Shown here in pieces: positions 3,805 to 38,605 of a stretch of DNA of 38,605 bases (within the stretch, counting starts at the first letter, position 1; each line of letters starts with the position of its first letter). Position numbers and translations under genes: made by a program. Where the stretch lies: assembly GCA_011772425.1 (NCBI GenBank), contig WVZO01000153.1, positions 1,615-40,219 of the forward strand, written 5' to 3'. Origin of the DNA: Candidatus Aminicenantota bacterium. GTDB lineage: Bacteria; Acidobacteriota; Aminicenantia; UBA2199. The notes beneath the pieces are model-generated. The model was not told the origin of the DNA, searched no databases, and was given only the letters and a program-made list of their open reading frames with translations.

Positions 3805-5436
3805 ATGAAGGAGCAGCCAATGGCGGAGTCTATTTCAGTTGTCATTAACAAAACATTTAGCCACACCATCTCCTGGCATGAAACTTTTTTACCAGCCCTT
3901 CGTACTTTACCCGTAGACCAGGCCCAAAAATTGCTGGAACATATTCTAACCTGCGATCCAAAAGAAATCGAGGCCCATGTCTATCATAATCACTATTTTG
4001 TCATGAAGTTTATCGGTGAGCACGGTGAATGGCTCAACAATAGAGATTTCCTTGAAAACCAAATCGAAGATTTTTTTCGCTTCTCATGGAATGAAGGCAA
4101 AAGCAGAAGTTTTGTCGGAAATAAAACCTGGGAGAGATTTATGAGCTGGGTCTTCTCTGTGAAGGATTTGTGTGTCTCCTCTATGCTGCAGGAAAAACTT
4201 TTATCGATAGCTGAAGATGTAAATCAAGAAGGCTGGCTGCGGAGCGCCTGCGCCGAAGCCCTGGGAAATTCAGGCATGAAAGATAAAGCCATGGAACTGC
4301 TTCTTTTTATTGTTGAAGATAAAAACCGGGATGAAGGGCTGCGAAGTTCCTGTGCCCGGGCCGTGGGAAAATTGGGTGTTAAAGATAAAACCGCAGTCGA
4401 ACGCTTACTTACACTTGCAGAAGATAACAACCAGGGGGATTGGCTGCGGAGTTCCTGTGCCCGGGCCCTAGGGAAATTGGGTATTAAAGATAAAACCGCT
4501 GTGGAGCGCTTACTTGCTTTTGTTGAAAACAAGAATGAGAAGGGCTGGCTGCGGGGTGCTTACGCCGAAGTCCTGGGAAAGTTAGGCATTGAAGACAAAA
4601 CCGTGATGGAGCGCTTACTCGCTCTTGCCCAAGATGAGAACCAGGATGGTTGGGTGAGGAGCGGCTGTGCCAAAGCTCTCATAAAGTCAGGCATTAAAGA
4701 AAAACCAGTGGAACTGCTGATTCTTCTTTTGGAAGATGAAAATCAGGATGGCTTGATGCGCAGCTCCTGTGCCGACACTGTGGGGAAATTAAGCGATAAA
4801 GATAATAAGTTAGTGGAGCGGTTACTTACTCTTATCGAAGATGAGAGCCAGGATAGCATGCTGCGGCGTTCCTGTGCAGAGGCCGTGGGAAATTCAACCG
4901 CTAAAGATAAAGAAGCGGTGAAGCGGTTACTGGCGCTTGCTGAAGATGAAAGCCAGGAGGGTGCGCTGCGGGGGGCCTGTGCCAAAGCCATCGGTAAGTT
5001 AAACGTTAAAGATAAAACCGTGGTGGGGAGGTTACTTACACTTGCTGAAGATGGGTACCCGGATGCTGTGGTGCGGCGTTCCTGTGTCGTTGCTGTGGGT
5101 AACTTATACGTTAAAGATAAAGTGGTGGTGAAACGTTTGCTCACGCTTGCCCTAGATGAGAACCAGGAAGATGTGCTGCGGGGTTTCTGTGCTGAAGCCA
5201 TGGAAAAATTGGAGGTTAAAGATAAGGCGGTGGTAGAGCGGTTACTTACGCTTGCTGAAGATAGGAACCAGGATACCTTACTGCGGCGTTTTTGTGCCAA
5301 AGCCATTGGGAGTCTGGACCTTAAAGATAAAGCAGTAGAAATATTGATTGAACTTTATTTTACCCAAAGGGAGAAAATATCGGATGAAGCACGATTAATT
5401 TATGACGCTTTATGGAACTTGACAGGCAATAGTTGA
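3805..5436 (+). CDS. HEAT-repeat protein (11 repeats of 34-35 aa)
   Basis: 543 aa; from about residue 130 the unit LLTLAEDxNQxxxLRxxCAxAxGKLxxKDKxVVER recurs 11 times (helix-turn-helix HEAT-like). Confidence 0.75.
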   Translation: MKEQPMAESISVVINKTFSHTISWHETFLPALRTLPVDQAQKLLEHILTCDPKEIEAHVYHNHYFVMKFIGEHGEWLNNRDFLENQIEDFFRFSWNEGKSRSFVGNKTWERFMSWVFSVKDLCVSSMLQEKLLSIAEDVNQEGWLRSACAEALGNSGMKDKAMELLLFIVEDKNRDEGLRSSCARAVGKLGVKDKTAVERLLTLAEDNNQGDWLRSSCARALGKLGIKDKTAVERLLAFVENKNEKGWLRGAYAEVLGKLGIEDKTVMERLLALAQDENQDGWVRSGCAKALIKSGIKEKPVELLILLLEDENQDGLMRSSCADTVGKLSDKDNKLVERLLTLIEDESQDSMLRRSCAEAVGNSTAKDKEAVKRLLALAEDESQEGALRGACAKAIGKLNVKDKTVVGRLLTLAEDGYPDAVVRRSCVVAVGNLYVKDKVVVKRLLTLALDENQEDVLRGFCAEAMEKLEVKDKAVVERLLTLAEDRNQDTLLRRFCAKAIGSLDLKDKAVEILIELYFTQREKISDEARLIYDALWNLTGNS

Positions 5437-10047: not shown

Positions 10048-10208
10048 GCACGAAATCCGAAATCCGAAATCCGAAACAAATTCAAAATTCGAATGTTCAA
10101 AATTCAAAACAGAAAAACCTGTACAGGGGTAAGTGGTTTATTGTTTTGGTCATTTGGATTTTGGTCATTCGGATTTGTTTCGAATTTCGATATTCGAATT
10201 TCGGATTT
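10048..10208. repeat. Dispersed imperfect-palindrome repeat, copy A (GAAATCC heptamers; inverted arms)
   Basis: Left arm gcacgaaatccgaaatccgaaatccgaaacaaattcaaaattcgaatgttcaaaattcaaaac, right arm gttttggtcatttggattttggtcattcggatttgtttcgaatttcgatattcgaatttcggattt; second copy inside 37194-37398. Confidence 0.85.
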
Positions 10209-11019: not shown

Positions 11020-14000
11020 CTAAGCCCTTTTGAGTTCGTCCTTAACAGCCCTGCCGATTTGTTCCATACCAAAGGGCTTTTTGATATAAGTGCCGGCTCC
11101 CAATTGCAGGGCTTCTTTAGCTTCTTTGGTTTCCGAATATCCACTGACGATGATGGCCTTTTGCCGGGGATACATGTTGAGAATCCGTTTATAGGTCTCA
11201 AGCCCACTGATCCCGGGGTCCATAATCATATCCAACACCAGGAGGTTCACGGGTCTTGTCTTCACGGTTTCAATCGCTGCTTCACCACTGGAAACAGCCT
11301 GAACCGAATATCCCAACTGCTTTAATATCAGGGTAGTAATTTCCCTCTGCTCTTCCACATCATCCACTACCAGGATCGATTCCCCATTGCCCATTAATTG
11401 ATCTATCGAAACGTGGAGTTTCTCTTTGATAACTTTTTGCTGGGTAGCAGGAAAATAAAGGGTGAAAGCGGAGCCTTTTCCTTTTTCGCTTTTTGCGGTA
11501 AGATATCCGTTGTGGTCTTTGACGGTTCCCCACACTACTGTCATACCCAATCCTGTTCCACTTTTTCCCATTCTCTTTTTGGTATAGAAAGGTTCAAAAA
11601 TATGTGTCATGTCTTTTTCAGATATACCTATACCGGTATCGGTAACCGAGAGGGCCACATAGTCTCCCGCTACCACTTCCCTGTACCCATCGAGGGGTTG
11701 GCTGAAGTATGTATTGAAGGTGGAAATAATGATTTTCCCTTTCCCCGGCATGGCTTCGGCTGCATTGGACACCAGGTTCATCAGGGCTTTGGACAGGTGC
11801 ACCGTAGAGCCTATCATGTTTTTTAAATCTTTATCCAACCGGTCTTCTACTTCAATTTCCGGTTGATAAGATAGAATCTTCATCAGCTCAGGGCTTTCCA
11901 TAAATTCACCAACCACCTGGTTAAGATTCACCACTTTTGTAACTTCGACACTGCGTCTGGCCAGGGTCAGCAGGTCCTGGACAATAGCAGCTGCTTTTTC
12001 ACCGGAATGTTGGATGGCGAGTGCATGCTTTCTTAATGGGTCGTCCTGGGGTATTTTTAACAGCATCAACTCCGGATAACTGACGATGCCAGCCAGGATA
12101 TTATTCAAGTCGTGCGCCACACCGGCTGCCAGGGTTCCGATCGCTTCCATTTTCTGAGCACGCAGCAATTGTTTGTTGGCGATTTCCAATTTCCGGGTCC
12201 GTTCCTCCACCCGTTGTTCCAGTTCCTCATTGATCTGTTCGACTTTTGCTTTTTCTTTTTCCAGTTCTAACGTACGTAAATGAACCTGTTGTTCCAGTAT
12301 TCGCTTTTGTTTTCTCAACTTTCGGGTCCGTAATTTTATAAAACCATAACCACTGCTAATTACAGCTATAGACACCAACAAATAAAACCACCAGGTTTTC
12401 CAGAAGGGGGGGATTATTCTAAATCGATACACGGCAGGTTTTTTATTCCATAAGCCATCATTGTTACAGGCTTTCACTTTAAACGCATATTCACCAGGGG
12501 GCAGATTGGAATAGATGGCATGGTTGTCTTTAGAGACCGGTGACCAATTCTCATCAAAACCCTCCAGCATAACCTGATACCTTACTTTTCCGGGAACCGT
12601 TAAACAAATTCCCACAAACTCAAAGGTCAGGTGATTCCGATTGTGGGAGAGTTCCACTCCCAGTGGCAGCCCAAAGTCAGTCCTGGATTTATGGTAGTCA
12701 TCAGACCAATCTACCTTTTCATGGAATAATTTCAAACCGGTAATATAAGTTGCCGGCTCTAGAGTATTGGGTTTATCTTCTTTGGGATTGAATTTAATTG
12801 CCCCATTTATCGTGCCCAGCCAGATATTGCCTGCTTTATCTTTGTATATTGCGCCCTCATTGGGTTCAATGCCAGGATAGCCATGGTCTCTATCGTAATG
12901 CTTAAATTTTCTTTTACCTGTTTTATTCAATTCAACCACATCCAATTGGGTGAGACTTTTTTTGCTGGCTATCCAGAGATTTCCATCATCATCAAACAAC
13001 AGTGAGAGGATTTCATCAGTCAACAAACCGTCTTCAGTGGTAATTGCCTCGAATTCGGCGTCTCCATTTATTTGAGATAGCTTATACCTGACAATCCCCC
13101 CACCGTACGTGCCAATCCATAGGGAATTTTCCCGGTCTTTTTCCAGGCACATGACGAAATTGTTGGTCAAGCCGTTGGCGGTGGTGATATGGCTAAAATT
13201 TACTCCATCGTACTTGCATAAGCCTTCGGGTGTAGCGATCCAGATATTTCCCTGTTTATCTTCCAATAAGTCGTTTATCAAATTATTTAATAATCCTTTT
13301 TCCTTTGTGAGGCTTCTAATCGTGTTCCCATCCCATACCATCACCCCCCTGTCTTCGGTTCCGAACCACATGTTTCCATGTCTATCTTCCAGGATACAAT
13401 AAATGCCAAGGGGGACCAAATTGTTTCTTTTACTGAAATCTGTATAAATATGGCCGTTATATTTAATGATTGAATCATCTGAGCAAAACCACAAATTACC
13501 TTTACTATCTTCATAGAATAGAGTTATATGCCCTTTGCAGTATTTTCCCTCCGCCATTTTAATAATTTTATCTTTTTGGTCATATGTTGCAATGCCTCCT
13601 TCGGTGGCAATCCACATGGTACCTTGATGATCTTCCCAAAAGGACCATACAATATTGTTTTTTAAACCTTCCTTTTCATTTAAATAGGTGAGGATTTCAC
13701 CCCTGAAGCAAGATACGCCGATACTTGTAGCCATCCAGATATTACCTTCGCGGTCCTCCAGGATATCGGTGACTTCATCATATCTCAAGCCTTGTCTTGT
13801 GGTATAGTTAGTAAACATGTGACCATCGAATTTACTGGCACCCCCAAATGTGGAAAACCAAAAATTACCGCTGCTGTCTTGCATGATATGACTCACATCG
13901 TTCTCACATAATCCTTCTTTGCTGGTATAACTGGTGAAGGTTTCGCCGTTAAAACACAACACACCGTTTCTCCTGGTACCGAACCATAAATTGCCGTTAT

Positions 14001-14679
14001 TATCCTCCAGGATATATTGGACAAAATACCCTTGTAAACGTCGGGTTACAACATCTGTGTTAAAGGCTGCCCCCTCATATTTATTGACTCCTTTGGGCGT
14101 AGCAAACCATAAATTGCCTGCCCTGTCTTCAAGGATACAGCGAACTTCGCTGTCAATTAAACCGTCTGCGGTGGTAAACGTTGTAAAATTCCTGCCGTCA
14201 TATCGACTGACTCCATTGGAATAGGTAGCAAACCACAAGTTACCATTTCTATCTTCCACCATATTCGAGATGGAATTACCACTTAAACCATCTTCCTTAG
14301 TATAAACGGTAAAATTACCATTGTCATATTTATTAAGGCCGTTAAGGGTTGCGATCCATAAGTGACCGTTCCGGTCTTCCATGATACAGGAGACAGAATT
14401 ATCGCTTAAACCGTTTTTTTTCGAATAATTAATAAAGGTATTACCATCGAATCGATCCACTCCTCCCCCATGTGTGCCGATCCACAAAAATCCTTTCCTG
14501 TCCTGGTAGACTGTATTAATAACAGAATCTCCCAATCCATCATCCATGGTAAAGGTTTTGAAATGGTAATGCTGCCCAAAAACAGGAACGGAGACAATAC
14601 GGAGCAATATATAGAAGAGTAATGCTGAAGCGGCAGCGCCCTTATATCTTACAATATTAAACTTCACGTCTCTTTTCAT
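11020..14679 (-). CDS. Hybrid sensor histidine kinase/response regulator with Reg_prop beta-propeller and Y_Y_Y domain
   Basis: 1219 aa; repeated DRxGNLWFAT...GLxxxxVxxIxEDRxGN propeller motifs; GEYAFKVKACNNDGLWN (Y_Y_Y); TM; AAGVAHDLNNILAGI (HisKA); GTGLGM (HATPase); LVVDDVEEQ...LLVLDMIMDPG receiver. Confidence 0.93.
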   Translation of the reverse strand: MKRDVKFNIVRYKGAAASALLFYILLRIVSVPVFGQHYHFKTFTMDDGLGDSVINTVYQDRKGFLWIGTHGGGVDRFDGNTFINYSKKNGLSDNSVSCIMEDRNGHLWIATLNGLNKYDNGNFTVYTKEDGLSGNSISNMVEDRNGNLWFATYSNGVSRYDGRNFTTFTTADGLIDSEVRCILEDRAGNLWFATPKGVNKYEGAAFNTDVVTRRLQGYFVQYILEDNNGNLWFGTRRNGVLCFNGETFTSYTSKEGLCENDVSHIMQDSSGNFWFSTFGGASKFDGHMFTNYTTRQGLRYDEVTDILEDREGNIWMATSIGVSCFRGEILTYLNEKEGLKNNIVWSFWEDHQGTMWIATEGGIATYDQKDKIIKMAEGKYCKGHITLFYEDSKGNLWFCSDDSIIKYNGHIYTDFSKRNNLVPLGIYCILEDRHGNMWFGTEDRGVMVWDGNTIRSLTKEKGLLNNLINDLLEDKQGNIWIATPEGLCKYDGVNFSHITTANGLTNNFVMCLEKDRENSLWIGTYGGGIVRYKLSQINGDAEFEAITTEDGLLTDEILSLLFDDDGNLWIASKKSLTQLDVVELNKTGKRKFKHYDRDHGYPGIEPNEGAIYKDKAGNIWLGTINGAIKFNPKEDKPNTLEPATYITGLKLFHEKVDWSDDYHKSRTDFGLPLGVELSHNRNHLTFEFVGICLTVPGKVRYQVMLEGFDENWSPVSKDNHAIYSNLPPGEYAFKVKACNNDGLWNKKPAVYRFRIIPPFWKTWWFYLLVSIAVISSGYGFIKLRTRKLRKQKRILEQQVHLRTLELEKEKAKVEQINEELEQRVEERTRKLEIANKQLLRAQKMEAIGTLAAGVAHDLNNILAGIVSYPELMLLKIPQDDPLRKHALAIQHSGEKAAAIVQDLLTLARRSVEVTKVVNLNQVVGEFMESPELMKILSYQPEIEVEDRLDKDLKNMIGSTVHLSKALMNLVSNAAEAMPGKGKIIISTFNTYFSQPLDGYREVVAGDYVALSVTDTGIGISEKDMTHIFEPFYTKKRMGKSGTGLGMTVVWGTVKDHNGYLTAKSEKGKGSAFTLYFPATQQKVIKEKLHVSIDQLMGNGESILVVDDVEEQREITTLILKQLGYSVQAVSSGEAAIETVKTRPVNLLVLDMIMDPGISGLETYKRILNMYPRQKAIIVSGYSETKEAKEALQLGAGTYIKKPFGMEQIGRAVKDELKRA

Positions 14680-14748: not shown

Positions 14749-17700
14749 CTATTTGATGGTTTTGGATAATTCGTCCTTAACAGCCTTGCCGATGCCTTCC
14801 ATGCCAAAGGGTTTTTTGACATAAGTCCCTGCCCCCAATCGCTGCGCTTCTTTGACTTCTTCTGTTTCGGTATAGCCGCTGATAATGACAGCTTTCTGCT
14901 GCGGATATAACCGCAGGATTCGTTTATAGGTTTCAAGACCACTGATCCCTGGTTCCATTATCATATCCAGCACCAGCAGGTCCACCGGATTCTTTTCTAC
15001 AAAATCCACAGCCGCTTCACCACTGGAGACAGCCTGAACCGAGTATCCTAACTTCTTCAACATCAGTGTGGCGATTTCCCCCTGGTCTTCCACATCATCT
15101 ACCACCAGGATCGATTCCCCATTGCCCATAAGGTTTTGCAGGATTGTTTGCTTCTCGGATTTTTCTTCTTTTTTATGGGTAGCAGGGAAATAAAGAGTGA
15201 ATGTCGATCCTTTTCCTTTTTCGCTCTGGATGGTAATATATCCTTTATGGTCTTGTACGGTTCCCCACACCACGGACATTCCCAATCCTGTTCCACTTTT
15301 TCCCATTTTCTTCTTGGTATAGAAGGGTTCAAAAATGTGTGTCGCATCTTCTTCAGACATACCTACACCGGTATCGGAAACCGAAAGGGCTACATAGTCT
15401 CCCGCTGCCACCTCGTCGTACCCATCCAGGGGTTGATCAAGATATTTATTGAAGGTGGTAATGGTGACGTTTCCTTGTCCCGGTATGGCCTCCACTGCAT
15501 TGGATACCAGGTTCATCAGGGTTTTGCACAGGTGCAGGGGAGAGCCCACCATGTTTTTTAAACCTTCACCCAACCGGATTTCCACGTCTGCCCACGGGTG
15601 ATAGGATAGAATTTTTCCCAGTTCAGGACTTTTCATACATTCGGATACGATATGGTTGAGATTCACCACTTCCTCAACTTCAATACTGCGCCTTGCTAAT
15701 GTCAGCAGGTCCTGGACAATGGCAGCGGCCTTTTCCCCGGACCGTTGAATTCTTAAGATACTTTTTCTTAACGGGCTCTCATCCGGGCTCTCCTTCGGCA
15801 GCTGCAATAATAATAGTTCCGGGTAACTGACAATACCGGCCATGACATTATTCAGATCATGGGCGACCCCTGCTGCCAGGGTGCCGATGGCTTCCATTTT
15901 CTGGGCATGGAGCAATTGTTTGTGTGCTTTTTTTAACTTTTGGGTTCGCTCTTCTACCCGTTGTTCCAATTCGCGGTTGATCTGTTCGACTTTTTTCTTT
16001 TCCTCTTGTAATTCTAGTGTCCGCAAGCGGACCTGTTCTTCCAGTTTTCGCTGCCGTTTTTTCAGGTGCCTTTCCCGGGATTTAACAAATCCAAAGACAG
16101 TGCTGATGATTGCTGCGCCCACCAACATATAGAACCACCACGTCATCCAATAAGGCGCTTTGATTCGAAACGAATAAACGGTTGGTTCTTGATTCCATAT
16201 ACCACTGTTGTTACTGGCTTTGACTTTGAAAATATACTCTCCGGGCAGCAAATTGGAATAAGTAACAAAATTACTTTCCGAAGCCGGAGACCAATCCTGG
16301 TCAAATCCCTCCAGCTTGACACGATACCTCACTTTCTCGGGAACCGTTAAACTAATACCGATAAACTCAAATGTCAGATGGTTTTTATTATGCGGCAGCT
16401 CCAGGTTACCGGGTAAGCAGGGCAAGAGGGTGGGCCCCGCCTTCATCCTGTCCTGCTTATCCCTTGAATAGAGGAATAAATCTACTTCTTCAAAGAAAAG
16501 CTTCACATTGGTAATATGGGTCGCGGGTTCCACTGGATTGGGTTGATCTTCTTCGGGATCGTATTTAACGGCTCCTTTGATGGTTCCAAACCATAGATTA
16601 CCTTCTTTATCTTTATATACGGCATTTTGATTGCATTCGATACCGATAAACCCATCTTCTTTACCATAATATTTAAGAACTTTCTTACCGGTTTCATTAA
16701 ATTGGGCCACATCCAGTAATGTAATTCCTTTATTGGTGCCTATCCAGAGATTGGCGTTATTGTCGAAGATCATCAGGAGAACTTCATCGTCTACCAATCC
16801 ATCTTTGGAGGAAAAGCTTTCAAACGTGCCTTTCAAGATATCCCGGGATTCGTCAAACGTGTATTTGAGGACTCCTCCGCCGTATGTTCCAATCCAAAGG
16901 TTTTCATCTTTATCTTCCAGTAAAGAATTAATTACACGATTCGTCAAGCCATTTTCTGTTGTTATAGTAATATCGGTAATTTCCTGTTTTTTTCCATCAT
17001 ATATATTGATACCGCGACTGGTGCCGATCCAGATATTTCCCCTGGGGTCTTCGATGACCGCACTTACCGTGTTGTGCAGCAGCCCATCTTTTTCAATAAA
17101 ACTTGTAATTGTTTTTGTTTTTTCATCATACTTTTTAACGCCGTGGTCTTCGGAACCGAACCACAGGTTCCCCCCGCTGTCTTCATAAATAGCAACAATA
17201 TTTACAGCGTCGACATTTAATATGTTCTCCATGTCCGTATAGGTTTTTCCGTTATATTTAATAAGGGTTTTACCCGTCCCGAACCACAGGTTGCCCCGGC
17301 TGTCCTTATAAAAAGAATATGGAATCCCCCCTCCCCAGCCATCGGGGACGGTTACAATCGAAGAATCTTTTTTATTATATTTGGCGACACATTTTTCCGT
17401 GGAGAGCCACATTTCACCGTTTATATCTTCCCATATTGACCAGACTGTGTTATCCATTAATCCATCGTTTACCGTGAGGTAGGAGAATGCCTTTCCCCGG
17501 AATTGGGAGACCCCCGAATCTGTTGCGAACCAGAGCGGCCCTTCGCGACTCTCCATTACCCATGACACATTATTATGGGAAAGTCCTTCTTTGGGGGTGT
17601 AGGAAGTGAAATTATGAGTACGCCGGTTCAAATAGCTGGCACCATGTGCAGTAGCAAACCACAGGTCACCCCGGCTGTCTTCCAGTATGTGGTTAACCTC

Positions 17701-18528
17701 GTTAGAACATAAGCCTTGCTTTGTGGTGTAGACGGTCATGATTTTGCCGTTCCAACAGTAAGCGCCATTTCCTAATGTGGCAAACCAGAGGTTTCCTTTT
17801 TTATCTTCCAGGATATGTTCAACTTCATAATCGGATAAACGCTCCGTGAACGGACATTGAATAAATGTAAGAGTCTGAGGGTCAAATTTACTGACACCTT
17901 TAGACGTGCCAATCCACAAATTTCCTTCCCGGTCCTGGGTAATAGTCCTGGTTTTGTTATGGGCCAGGCCCTGGTCAGCGGAAAAATTGATAAACGGCTT
18001 GTTGGGATTAGCGGTGTCAAATCGACTGATTCCACCGGCATATGTACCCAGCCATAAATAACCGCTGCGGTCTTCCTGGATTACCCAGACGGTATCGTCA
18101 GGTAAACCGTCTTTTTTAGTATAACTGGTAAAGGATTTACCGTCGTATTTATTGAGCCCGTAATCGGTCCCGAACCACAGGTTGCCCTGGTGGTCTTCAA
18201 TAATCATATAGACGAAATTATCGCTTAAACCGTCTTTTGTGGAATAATTGGCAAAGGTTTTTCCATCAAAGCGGCTCACACCACCCCCCCAGGTTCCTAT
18301 CCACAAATACCCGCGGCTGTCCTGGAAAACAACATAAACCTGGGATTGGGCCAAACCCTCCTCTACGGAATAGCTCCTGAAATTATAGTGCAGGGCAAAA
18401 CCAATGTGCGAAAAAAACAGGAGCCCCAAAAAAATAAACAGGGCCATAAGAATCTCTAAATTTTTTACTTTTTTTGCTGACCCATTCCTTGTCATCAGTA
18501 TATTATTGTATAAAAAAATTAAGTGCAT
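14749..18528 (-). CDS. Hybrid sensor histidine kinase/response regulator, tandem paralog of the downstream gene (likely start at 18495)
   Basis: Same architecture and near-identical motifs (AAGVAHDLNNVMAGIVSYPELLLL; GTGLGMSVVWGTVQDHKGYI; LVVDDVEDQ). MTRNGSA start is more plausible than the upstream ATG. Confidence 0.93.
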   Translation of the reverse strand: MHLIFLYNNILMTRNGSAKKVKNLEILMALFIFLGLLFFSHIGFALHYNFRSYSVEEGLAQSQVYVVFQDSRGYLWIGTWGGGVSRFDGKTFANYSTKDGLSDNFVYMIIEDHQGNLWFGTDYGLNKYDGKSFTSYTKKDGLPDDTVWVIQEDRSGYLWLGTYAGGISRFDTANPNKPFINFSADQGLAHNKTRTITQDREGNLWIGTSKGVSKFDPQTLTFIQCPFTERLSDYEVEHILEDKKGNLWFATLGNGAYCWNGKIMTVYTTKQGLCSNEVNHILEDSRGDLWFATAHGASYLNRRTHNFTSYTPKEGLSHNNVSWVMESREGPLWFATDSGVSQFRGKAFSYLTVNDGLMDNTVWSIWEDINGEMWLSTEKCVAKYNKKDSSIVTVPDGWGGGIPYSFYKDSRGNLWFGTGKTLIKYNGKTYTDMENILNVDAVNIVAIYEDSGGNLWFGSEDHGVKKYDEKTKTITSFIEKDGLLHNTVSAVIEDPRGNIWIGTSRGINIYDGKKQEITDITITTENGLTNRVINSLLEDKDENLWIGTYGGGVLKYTFDESRDILKGTFESFSSKDGLVDDEVLLMIFDNNANLWIGTNKGITLLDVAQFNETGKKVLKYYGKEDGFIGIECNQNAVYKDKEGNLWFGTIKGAVKYDPEEDQPNPVEPATHITNVKLFFEEVDLFLYSRDKQDRMKAGPTLLPCLPGNLELPHNKNHLTFEFIGISLTVPEKVRYRVKLEGFDQDWSPASESNFVTYSNLLPGEYIFKVKASNNSGIWNQEPTVYSFRIKAPYWMTWWFYMLVGAAIISTVFGFVKSRERHLKKRQRKLEEQVRLRTLELQEEKKKVEQINRELEQRVEERTQKLKKAHKQLLHAQKMEAIGTLAAGVAHDLNNVMAGIVSYPELLLLQLPKESPDESPLRKSILRIQRSGEKAAAIVQDLLTLARRSIEVEEVVNLNHIVSECMKSPELGKILSYHPWADVEIRLGEGLKNMVGSPLHLCKTLMNLVSNAVEAIPGQGNVTITTFNKYLDQPLDGYDEVAAGDYVALSVSDTGVGMSEEDATHIFEPFYTKKKMGKSGTGLGMSVVWGTVQDHKGYITIQSEKGKGSTFTLYFPATHKKEEKSEKQTILQNLMGNGESILVVDDVEDQGEIATLMLKKLGYSVQAVSSGEAAVDFVEKNPVDLLVLDMIMEPGISGLETYKRILRLYPQQKAVIISGYTETEEVKEAQRLGAGTYVKKPFGMEGIGKAVKDELSKTIK

Positions 18529-36995: not shown

Positions 36996-37193
36996 AAAAA
37001 CATGCTTCCGCCCTTGGGTTTCTCTGACACGGCAGCCTGAATTAACAATAAACATCATAGGAACATATTTATAACATAAAAACGTTTTTTTTTACAGGGC
37101 AACACTAAAATTGTGGCAATTCTAATTATGGAGTAATGGAGTAGTGGAGTAATGGAAATAGAGCTGTCCGAACCTGAAAAAAGGGACTGGTGG

Positions 37194-37398
37194 GAATGCC
37201 ACTAACTTAAGACTAAATTCGAAGCACGAAGCACGAAATCCGAAACAAATCCAAAATTCTAATGTTCAAAATTCAAAACAAAAAGAACCTGGCATGTTGG
37301 TTTTTTTTGTTTTGGTCATTTAAATTTTGGTCATTTGAATTTGTTTCGAATTTCGATATTCGAATTTCGGATTTATTAGCCTTAAGTTAGTGGCATTC
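37194..37398. mobile_element. 205-bp MITE-like element with perfect 18-bp terminal inverted repeats, containing copy B of the dispersed palindromic repeat
   Basis: Left end gaatgccactaacttaag (37194-37211) and right end cttaagttagtggcattc (37381-37398) are exact reverse complements; interior closely matches 10048-10208; no ORF. Confidence 0.75.
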
Positions 37399-37433
37399 TG
37401 GCCAGGCCAATTTCTCATTTATTCCCTAGGCCA

Positions 37434-38036
37434 TTAAATCAACATCAAATCCTTGTAATCGGTACAGAAATCTTTGCGCTGACATTTCACACACCGCTTG
37501 CCCATCCAGATTAGATCAAACTGCTCCATGATCCGGCCCACCAACTGGGGATCGGTAGTAATGAAACCCGATTCAAAATTCCTGCGGTTGCCGCTCTTCG
37601 CCCCCATACCGGCACCGGTTAAGTTGGCACTGCCGGAATAGGCAATCTTACCATCCACTACGACTGTCTTGAAATGAACCCGGGGACACAAAATACGCTC
37701 CATACCGGTAATAAGGTTAGGGTAACGGTCAAAATCCTGGCGAAACGCCTGACCAGGCTCCTTTGCATGCAGCATACGAATGGCTACCCCTCGCTCTACG
37801 AGATTGGAAAGTACCTCAAGAAAAGGCACCATCTGCTTTCCTTTGTGCACATGAAGGTCCTTCAAATCAGACGTCCCCAACCAAAGAAATTCCTGCGCAG
37901 AAGAAACAGCCTCAAGTATCACTCGCCTATAAATCTCTTCGTCAGTAATAAACTCTGTCTTCATCATTTCTATTAATAGAGTCACCGCAGGTCTCCACCT
38001 CGTGTGGCGTCTCCGGCGGGCATGCGGCGCATGCAC
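37434..38036 (-). CDS. Phospholipase D-like (single HKD) protein with C-terminal Cys cluster; likely start at 37964 or 37967
   Basis: HFKTVVVDGKIAYSGSANLTGAG fits HxKx4Dx6GSxN; C-terminus CVKCQRKDFC; residues before MMKTEF look like translated leader DNA. Confidence 0.82.
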   Translation of the reverse strand: MHAPHARRRRHTRWRPAVTLLIEMMKTEFITDEEIYRRVILEAVSSAQEFLWLGTSDLKDLHVHKGKQMVPFLEVLSNLVERGVAIRMLHAKEPGQAFRQDFDRYPNLITGMERILCPRVHFKTVVVDGKIAYSGSANLTGAGMGAKSGNRRNFESGFITTDPQLVGRIMEQFDLIWMGKRCVKCQRKDFCTDYKDLMLI

Positions 38037-38116: not shown

Positions 38117-38258
38117 GGCGGCTGGCAGCCTATAAATCAGGTCAAAAACCAAAAGTCAATTATAGCACAGTTTTCCAGTAGTTTCAAAAGGGAAAAATCC
38201 ATAATAAATTCCCAAATTTTTTTTGACTGGCCCCTTTTTTTGCTTCCTCATTGATGAT

Positions 38259-38528
38259 AAGACGTCTATTCTATTTTCAGTAGATGACTATACACGGATG
38301 ATGAGACGTCTTCTCCCTTTTAATAGACAGCTATACAATGATGAATAGACGTCTACTCTTTTTTAATAGATGGCTATACAGTGATGAATAGATAGCTACT
38401 CTTTTTTAATAGACGGCTATACAATGATGAATAGACAGCTACTCTTTTTCAATAGACGGCTATACTGTGTTTAATAGATGGCTATACAGGGATGATAAGA
38501 CGTCTATTCTATCTTTAGTAGATGACTA
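38259..38528. repeat. Iteron-like array: 13 near-palindromic decamers at 21-22 bp spacing, with a 43-bp higher-order period
   Basis: Decamer starts 38259, 38281, 38303, 38324, 38346, 38367, 38389, 38410, 38432, 38453, 38475, 38497, 38519; consensus xAGAYRDCTw, e.g. TAGACGTCTA at 38346-38355. Confidence 0.92.
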
Positions 38529-38605
38529 CTTGTTGATGATGAGAGTTACAATCACCATCTTTTGTAGAATTAAAATTAAGCGAGCCATTTGGTTCACCTG
38601 GTTTG

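Follow-up and report, generated by a model that had tools for sequence, protein, structure and literature searches.

Structure of the tandem array

The window, by which is meant the whole stretch of 38,605 nucleotides that was analysed, ends in a tandem array of short near-palindromic units (Table 1). The question raised by the array is whether its regularly spaced units form an iteron-type replication origin, a partition centromere or a cluster of operators, as a first-pass annotation proposed, or belong to a different kind of repeat. All 13 TAGAYRNCTA-like decamers described in that annotation are present, and each of the 12 spacings between them (22, 22, 21, 22, 21, 22, 21, 22, 21, 22, 22 and 22 bp) is as stated there. 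TRF detects the array independently, with periods of 22, 43, and 86 bp. For comparison, 300 Markov-1 random windows equal in length to the real one contain 5.3 motifs on average, and their longest chain with a spacing of 21 or 22 bp includes two motifs, compared to 13 in the real array. The contig (C455) ends approximately 65 bp beyond the array.

Each of the six reading frames of the array contains 6–14 stop codons, and none has an open stretch longer than 36 amino acids. Therefore, the array is non-coding, in agreement with the first reading, and a coding repeat is ruled out for every frame on both strands. A CRISPR array of identical repeats and unique spacers is ruled out by the linkers, which are of two recurring types. 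The window does include a coding tandem repeat, unlike the intergenic arrays, at positions 4315–5336, where 105-bp (35-residue) repeats lie in the gene of a HEAT-repeat protein.

Table 1 Coordinates of the array and its neighbouring gene in the window
Feature	Position	Strand	Description
PLD-like domain protein gene	37434–38036	−	Nearest gene; 200 aa; Pfam PF13091, E = 1e-14; start ~217 bp from the array
Satellite array, non-coding tandem	38253–38540		13 units of 21/22 bp; two units form a 43-bp super-period; TRF, family BLAST
Core decamers WAGNYRNCTA	38259–38528		Starts at 38259, 38281, 38303, 38324, 38346, 38367, 38389, 38410, 38432, 38453, 38475, 38497, 38519
Left two-unit block	38253–38296		TTCTATTTTCAG linker variant; the C21 array has a near-identical one in its interior
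Right two-unit block	38491–38534		TTCTATCTTTAG linker variant; CTTGTTGATGATGAG comes next, as it does in the C21 array

A dispersed family of arrays in one genome

The assembly from which the window originates has 10.4 Mb in 768 contigs, and is 88% complete and 7% contaminated. The rpoB of the host is 82% identical to that of a metagenome-assembled genome from Lac Pavin sediment named Candidatus Aminicenantes, and most of the other close matches bear the same name. A BLAST search of the assembly identified 17 matches to the family on 13 contigs, with the window array itself counted. The family comprises approximately 14 arrays on 12–13 contigs, each composed of 3–20 units; the 138 units analysed below were parsed from 14 extracted arrays that include the one from the window. 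The arrays are intergenic and adjoin unrelated genes in all orientations. The 21–22-bp spacing is conserved throughout the family, since 123 of the 124 spacings in the 14 arrays are 21 bp (80) or 22 bp (43), and a single one is 20 bp.

A search with the decamer consensus and its spacing, which the first-pass annotation suggested for the genome and its relatives, gave 48 matches to a two-decamer pattern in the genome of origin and none in five relatives (three congeners and two family members). Every listed two-decamer match is on a contig bearing an array of the window family. A three-decamer pattern matched 32 times in the genome of origin, whereas 142 other genomes of the class gave no match. 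A pattern scan of a collection of genome contigs that excludes records of the genome of origin was likewise negative. No DNA match to the array was found among 59 relatives, and none in collections of phages, plasmids, and viruses, and an origin of the array from such elements was rejected.

Arrays have been gained or lost at given positions. At two orthologous spots (L024/L200 and L201/L015), the array is present in one genome and absent from the relative, in a positional comparison that covers few cases and different species rather than strains. Some contigs break at arrays: the end of C146 (L011) matches the sequence just past the array on C564 (L014), and C520 (L010) ends in the array exit sequence seen on C146. 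These breaks suggest strain variation in array length or breaks of the assembly. Next to the end of the arrays on C21 and C54 (L009:6240-6590 and L012:4650-4980) lies a small remnant reading frame (...ALKRMDVRHYSHFSRGYKEYRGCYPSETLRKYKKRN...) common to both, a possible trace of the way in which the array was copied.

Anatomy of the repeat unit

Six columns of the decamer are nearly invariant over the 138 units of the family: A2 (134 units), G3 (137), Y5 (138), R6 (135), C8 (135), and T9 (132). Columns 4 and 7 are free. The family contains two alternating half-unit types, one of which is followed by a T-rich linker and the other by TAC...GATGAT. The two types have the short core AG..YR..CT in common and differ in their linkers, as the identity between them is 0.68 in the decamer versus 0.38 in the linker. 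Selection for the core only is unproven, because conservation between arrays is no lower in the T-rich linker (0.77) than in the decamer belonging to that unit type (0.73). In the window, the previously described alternation of T-rich and TAC..GATGAA linkers holds in general, with one break between the units at 38453 and 38475, where the linker is tactgtgtttaa.

The two-unit blocks at the ends of the array are nearly identical and had been regarded as boundary units. However, the TTCTATYTTTAG-TAGATGAC variant is also located inside the C21 array, where it forms units 7–8 of 10, and it terminates a four-unit array on C146. A near-identical form of the TTCTATTTTCAG variant lies inside the C21 array, which indicates that the left block marks no boundary and represents a unit variant that was inherited. 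The unit order of the right block is shared with locus L009, and the block was therefore copied between loci; unit blocks recurring in the same order at different loci have been copied from one to another. The first unit of six other arrays of the family is degenerate (GATAACNGGTCATGGATGATGAG-like), and GTGATAAC closes some; neither is seen in the window array.

The units had also been proposed to place all their dyads on one face of the DNA helix. This holds between neighbours, which are shifted by 0 or approximately 34° at 10.5 bp per turn, but the errors accumulate, so that over the 260 bp from the first to the last decamer the difference reaches 274°. The phase resultant of the window array is R = 0.35 at 10.5 bp per turn, and R = 0.97 is obtained at 10.83 bp per turn only. 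The mean spacing ranges from 21.0 to 21.67 bp among the arrays of the family, and therefore no single strict helical phase is kept. Two helical turns is a correct description of the length class, whereas the location of all decamers on one face is not established.

Flanking genes

The first-pass annotation suggested looking for the same array next to homologs of its flanking genes. Orthologues of the PLD-like gene in two relatives (G003 and G006) lack the array within the stretch fetched, and a tie of the array to this gene was rejected on these grounds. The PLD-like gene is treated here as a neighbour of the array. It is highly unlikely that the array is a gene-specific multi-operator or enhancer of the PLD-like gene. 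A good sigma-70-like site (TTGAAA-17-TATAAT with an extended −10, 11/12) is positioned on the minus strand at 38187-38159, between the array and the gene, and speaks for the operator reading. Nevertheless, promoter-like sites are no more common than in shuffled sequences (3 found versus 3.8 expected), the two orthologues have no array within the stretch fetched, and the array family adjoins unrelated genes in all orientations.

An iteron-type replication origin or a partition centromere is already contradicted and can practically be dismissed. Direct repeats at a two-turn spacing do resemble the iterons of plasmid and phage origins. However, instead of the single cluster beside an initiator gene that characterizes an iteron origin, there are approximately 14 loci on many chromosomal contigs, and no initiator gene is nearby. 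The dnaA gene with a neighbouring parB is on contig C668 and another parB is on C578; neither contig carries an array of the window family, so that a parS-type site next to parAB is not observed either. The scanned window proteins include no rep gene, and no homologue of the array was found in the plasmid or phage collections. The origin and the centromere were rejected on the multiplicity of loci and the position of dnaA and parB elsewhere, and the multi-operator interpretation that had been offered along with them is not supported either.

Other features of the window include a MITE-like element at 37175-37417 with imperfect 42-nt terminal inverted repeats that are 81% complementary; the inner part of the repeats, CCACTAACTTAAG...CTTAAGTTAGTGG, flanks a CGAAATTCGAA-rich core. 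The core recurs without terminal repeats at 10053-10208. Two adjacent giant hybrid two-component proteins of approximately 1220–1260 residues each, with Reg_prop propeller, Y_Y_Y, HisKA, HATPase, and receiver domains, are encoded on the minus strand at 11020-14679 and 14749-18528.

Unrelated families of the same unit length

Tandem repeats were sampled with TRF from 536 kb of the genome of origin (G000) and 730 kb of a congener (G001), mostly from evenly stepped contigs with some picked for length. Among non-coding arrays of at least 60 bp, 14 of 18 in G000 and 11 of 12 in G001 have a 20–22-bp unit or a 42-bp double. The 20–22-bp arrays belong to 11 families in G000 and 21 in G001, with no 9-mer shared within a genome. 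The numbers of 20-, 21-, and 22-bp spacings within arrays are 3, 66, and 18 in G000 and 26, 240, and 5 in G001, and many columns have diverged; the scarcity of insertions and deletions is in part ascertainment, because arrays of regular length are more readily picked up with TRF and the gap penalties applied. Thus the unit length is held at about two helical turns while the sequence differs freely between families. In G001, the 21-bp unit corresponds to seven codons and some arrays are inside long open frames, and therefore not every sampled member of the class is surely non-coding. The possibility that the 21-bp unit consists of three 7-mers was rejected, since the identity at a shift of seven equals chance after the removal of one trivial case.

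The palindrome TGCA is present in 8 of the 21 unrelated 21-bp families of G001, where 1.6 are expected, and could be a shared core for one binding protein in that genome. Across the G000 families, no common word clearly exceeds the threshold set for the maximum of all words. The family CGTAGGAA... is present at more than 20 loci in G000 and has two weak matches in G001, and one G001 family is common to G003 and absent from G000. Of two other genera of the same taxonomic family, one (G014) had mostly heptamer-type and mixed short repeats in its sample, and the other (G005) had almost no repeats.

Unrelated 21–22-bp families are adjacent to each other in single intergenic regions (L013:4809-6856, L015:5335-6052, L019:5960-6640, and L020:3330-3667), for example as CGTAGGAA, CCCGAA, and TAGAC arrays in a row. 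The arrays therefore cluster. A sister family, CGTAGGAAGATNNTTCC, which occupies L009:10198-10380 and more than 20 further places in G000, resembles a GTAG-tagged REP palindrome set in tandem, and one of its copies is on C352, approximately 29 kb from the best Y1_Tnp match on the same contig.

Comparison with known repeats

Tandem repeats of constant length and variable sequence, with units of 20–23 nt and no known function, have been described in bacteria by Subirana & Messeguer (PMC8161180, whose ref. 3 is an earlier survey of the class). According to that paper, about 21 nt corresponds to two turns of the helix, and nucleoid proteins or small RNAs are offered as untested explanations. The array shares the features given there: units of 20–23 nt in at least four repeats equal to within ±1 (here 13 units of 21 or 22 bp only), a non-coding sequence (6–14 stops per frame), and several families of one length and unrelated sequence per genome (11 and 21 in the two samples). 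The families are limited to a species or its close relatives (no match in the 142 class genomes or the 59 relatives searched), and a short word is retained. Positional conservation is partial, as judged from the two orthologous spots and the neighbourhood of the PLD-like gene, which are few cases from species and not strains. All testable defining features are thus present, and the array is filed in the 20–23-nt satellite class. It differs from the class in having a clear two-unit super-period of 43 bp with alternating linkers, and in its host, since Aminicenantes (Acidobacteriota) are not among the groups named in the available text. No earlier report of such satellites in the phylum was found in the open-access literature. 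The array probably represents one of the dispersed copies of a non-coding satellite family that is specific to its species, a large-genome Candidatus Aminicenantes bacterium, and that belongs to the constant 20–23-bp class.

REP, BIME, and REPIN elements, which are associated with RAYT transposases, are likewise short imperfect palindromes scattered between genes (PMC3733652, PMC3116915). By contrast, the window family forms long head-to-tail arrays of 3–20 units at fixed spacing, and its units do not have the paired stem of a 20–40-bp REP palindrome. The four Y1_Tnp matches in the genome (C352, C507, C374, and C132) are all on contigs without the window family, although a transposase of this type may act on it in trans. 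The tandem repeats of Borgs, giant archaeal elements, resemble the arrays in being genome-wide, fast-evolving, and intergenic, some with units of 20–21 nt (PMC9879509). However, the Borg units quoted there vary in length (18, 20, 21, and 36 nt) and occur in near-perfect copies, whereas the units described here are confined to 20–22 bp and have diverged.

Possible causes of the constant unit length

The decamers had been described as near-palindromes, and they are partly palindromic; however, columns 4 and 7 of the inner dyad are paired in 20% of the units, less than the 33% expected from shuffled columns, and no covariation between neighbouring-unit or intra-unit pairs was seen in the 138 units. 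Therefore, palindromy is not the conserved property of the window family. Column-shuffled units of the family fold as well as the real ones (mean z = +0.25), and a hairpin or dyad kept by compensatory change was rejected. Applied class-wide, the same test gives only a weak trend (Stouffer −1.8). The unit consensuses are enriched in inverted repeats and form hairpins more often than shuffled units, with 18 of 38 below p = 0.15 compared to 5.7 expected (binomial 2e-6), at a cut-off picked after the values were seen.

It is improbable that the array is transcribed into tandem hairpins or serves as a source of small RNAs. It folds better than shuffled sequences as single-stranded DNA (z = −3.8) and weakly so as RNA (z = −1.7), and in Bacillus coagulans, satellites that belong to another length class are transcribed (PMC8625621 and PMC8161180). 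However, tandem repeats of near-palindromes fold well trivially, the pairs within and between units do not covary, and a known RNA family was rejected for lack of an Rfam match in the window. A neutral or selfish minisatellite is quite possible, if somewhat doubtful. The mutational process that starts and expands arrays would then set the 21–22-bp length, for example by slippage favoured at two helical turns and aided by unit hairpins, and the arrays would be functionless. Fast turnover without conserved position, the range of 3–20 units per array, families private to one or two species, and the lack of covariation agree with such a process, and units enriched in inverted repeats could seed slippage. 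Nevertheless, a mutational cause alone does not explain the AG..YR..CT likeness of two half-unit types with different linkers. Nor does it account for unit lengths kept within ±1 bp despite much substitution, which is partly ascertainment. A further point against it is that the 21-bp units are not built from 7-mers.

The alternative, plausible but short of probable, is that the length is held by a protein. A putative nucleoid-type protein, probably dimeric, would contact the short core in each unit; with contacts recurring roughly every two turns, it would coat the array and thereby hold the unit length. Cooperative binding of a protein to the array, as deduced from the repeat pattern, is possible. 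On this view, the array would not be the operator of a single gene but a generic platform for binding within intergenic DNA. What tends to favour the protein is the core common to the unit types, together with the surplus of inverted repeats; a passive satellite is favoured rather by the rapid turnover, the private families, and the lack of covariation. The protein is rated slightly ahead of the passive satellite, and the small remainder falls to RNA, operator, and other readings.

Implications

The fixed 20–23-bp length of bacterial satellites that are unrelated in sequence is still puzzling. For annotators, the window array is not an origin, centromere, or operator. The genus has congeners with dozens of unrelated families of the same length, as opposed to the few or none in samples of relatives with smaller genomes, and offers a natural comparison by which a binding constraint could be told apart from a duplication mechanism. 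It is conceivable, although rather unlikely, that in this genus of Aminicenantes a lineage-specific DNA-binding protein forms polymers along intergenic arrays of any kind, as long as a short core recurs every two helical turns. Selection would then act on spacing and not on sequence, and each species would evolve satellite families of its own to serve a single chromosome-organising system shared between them.
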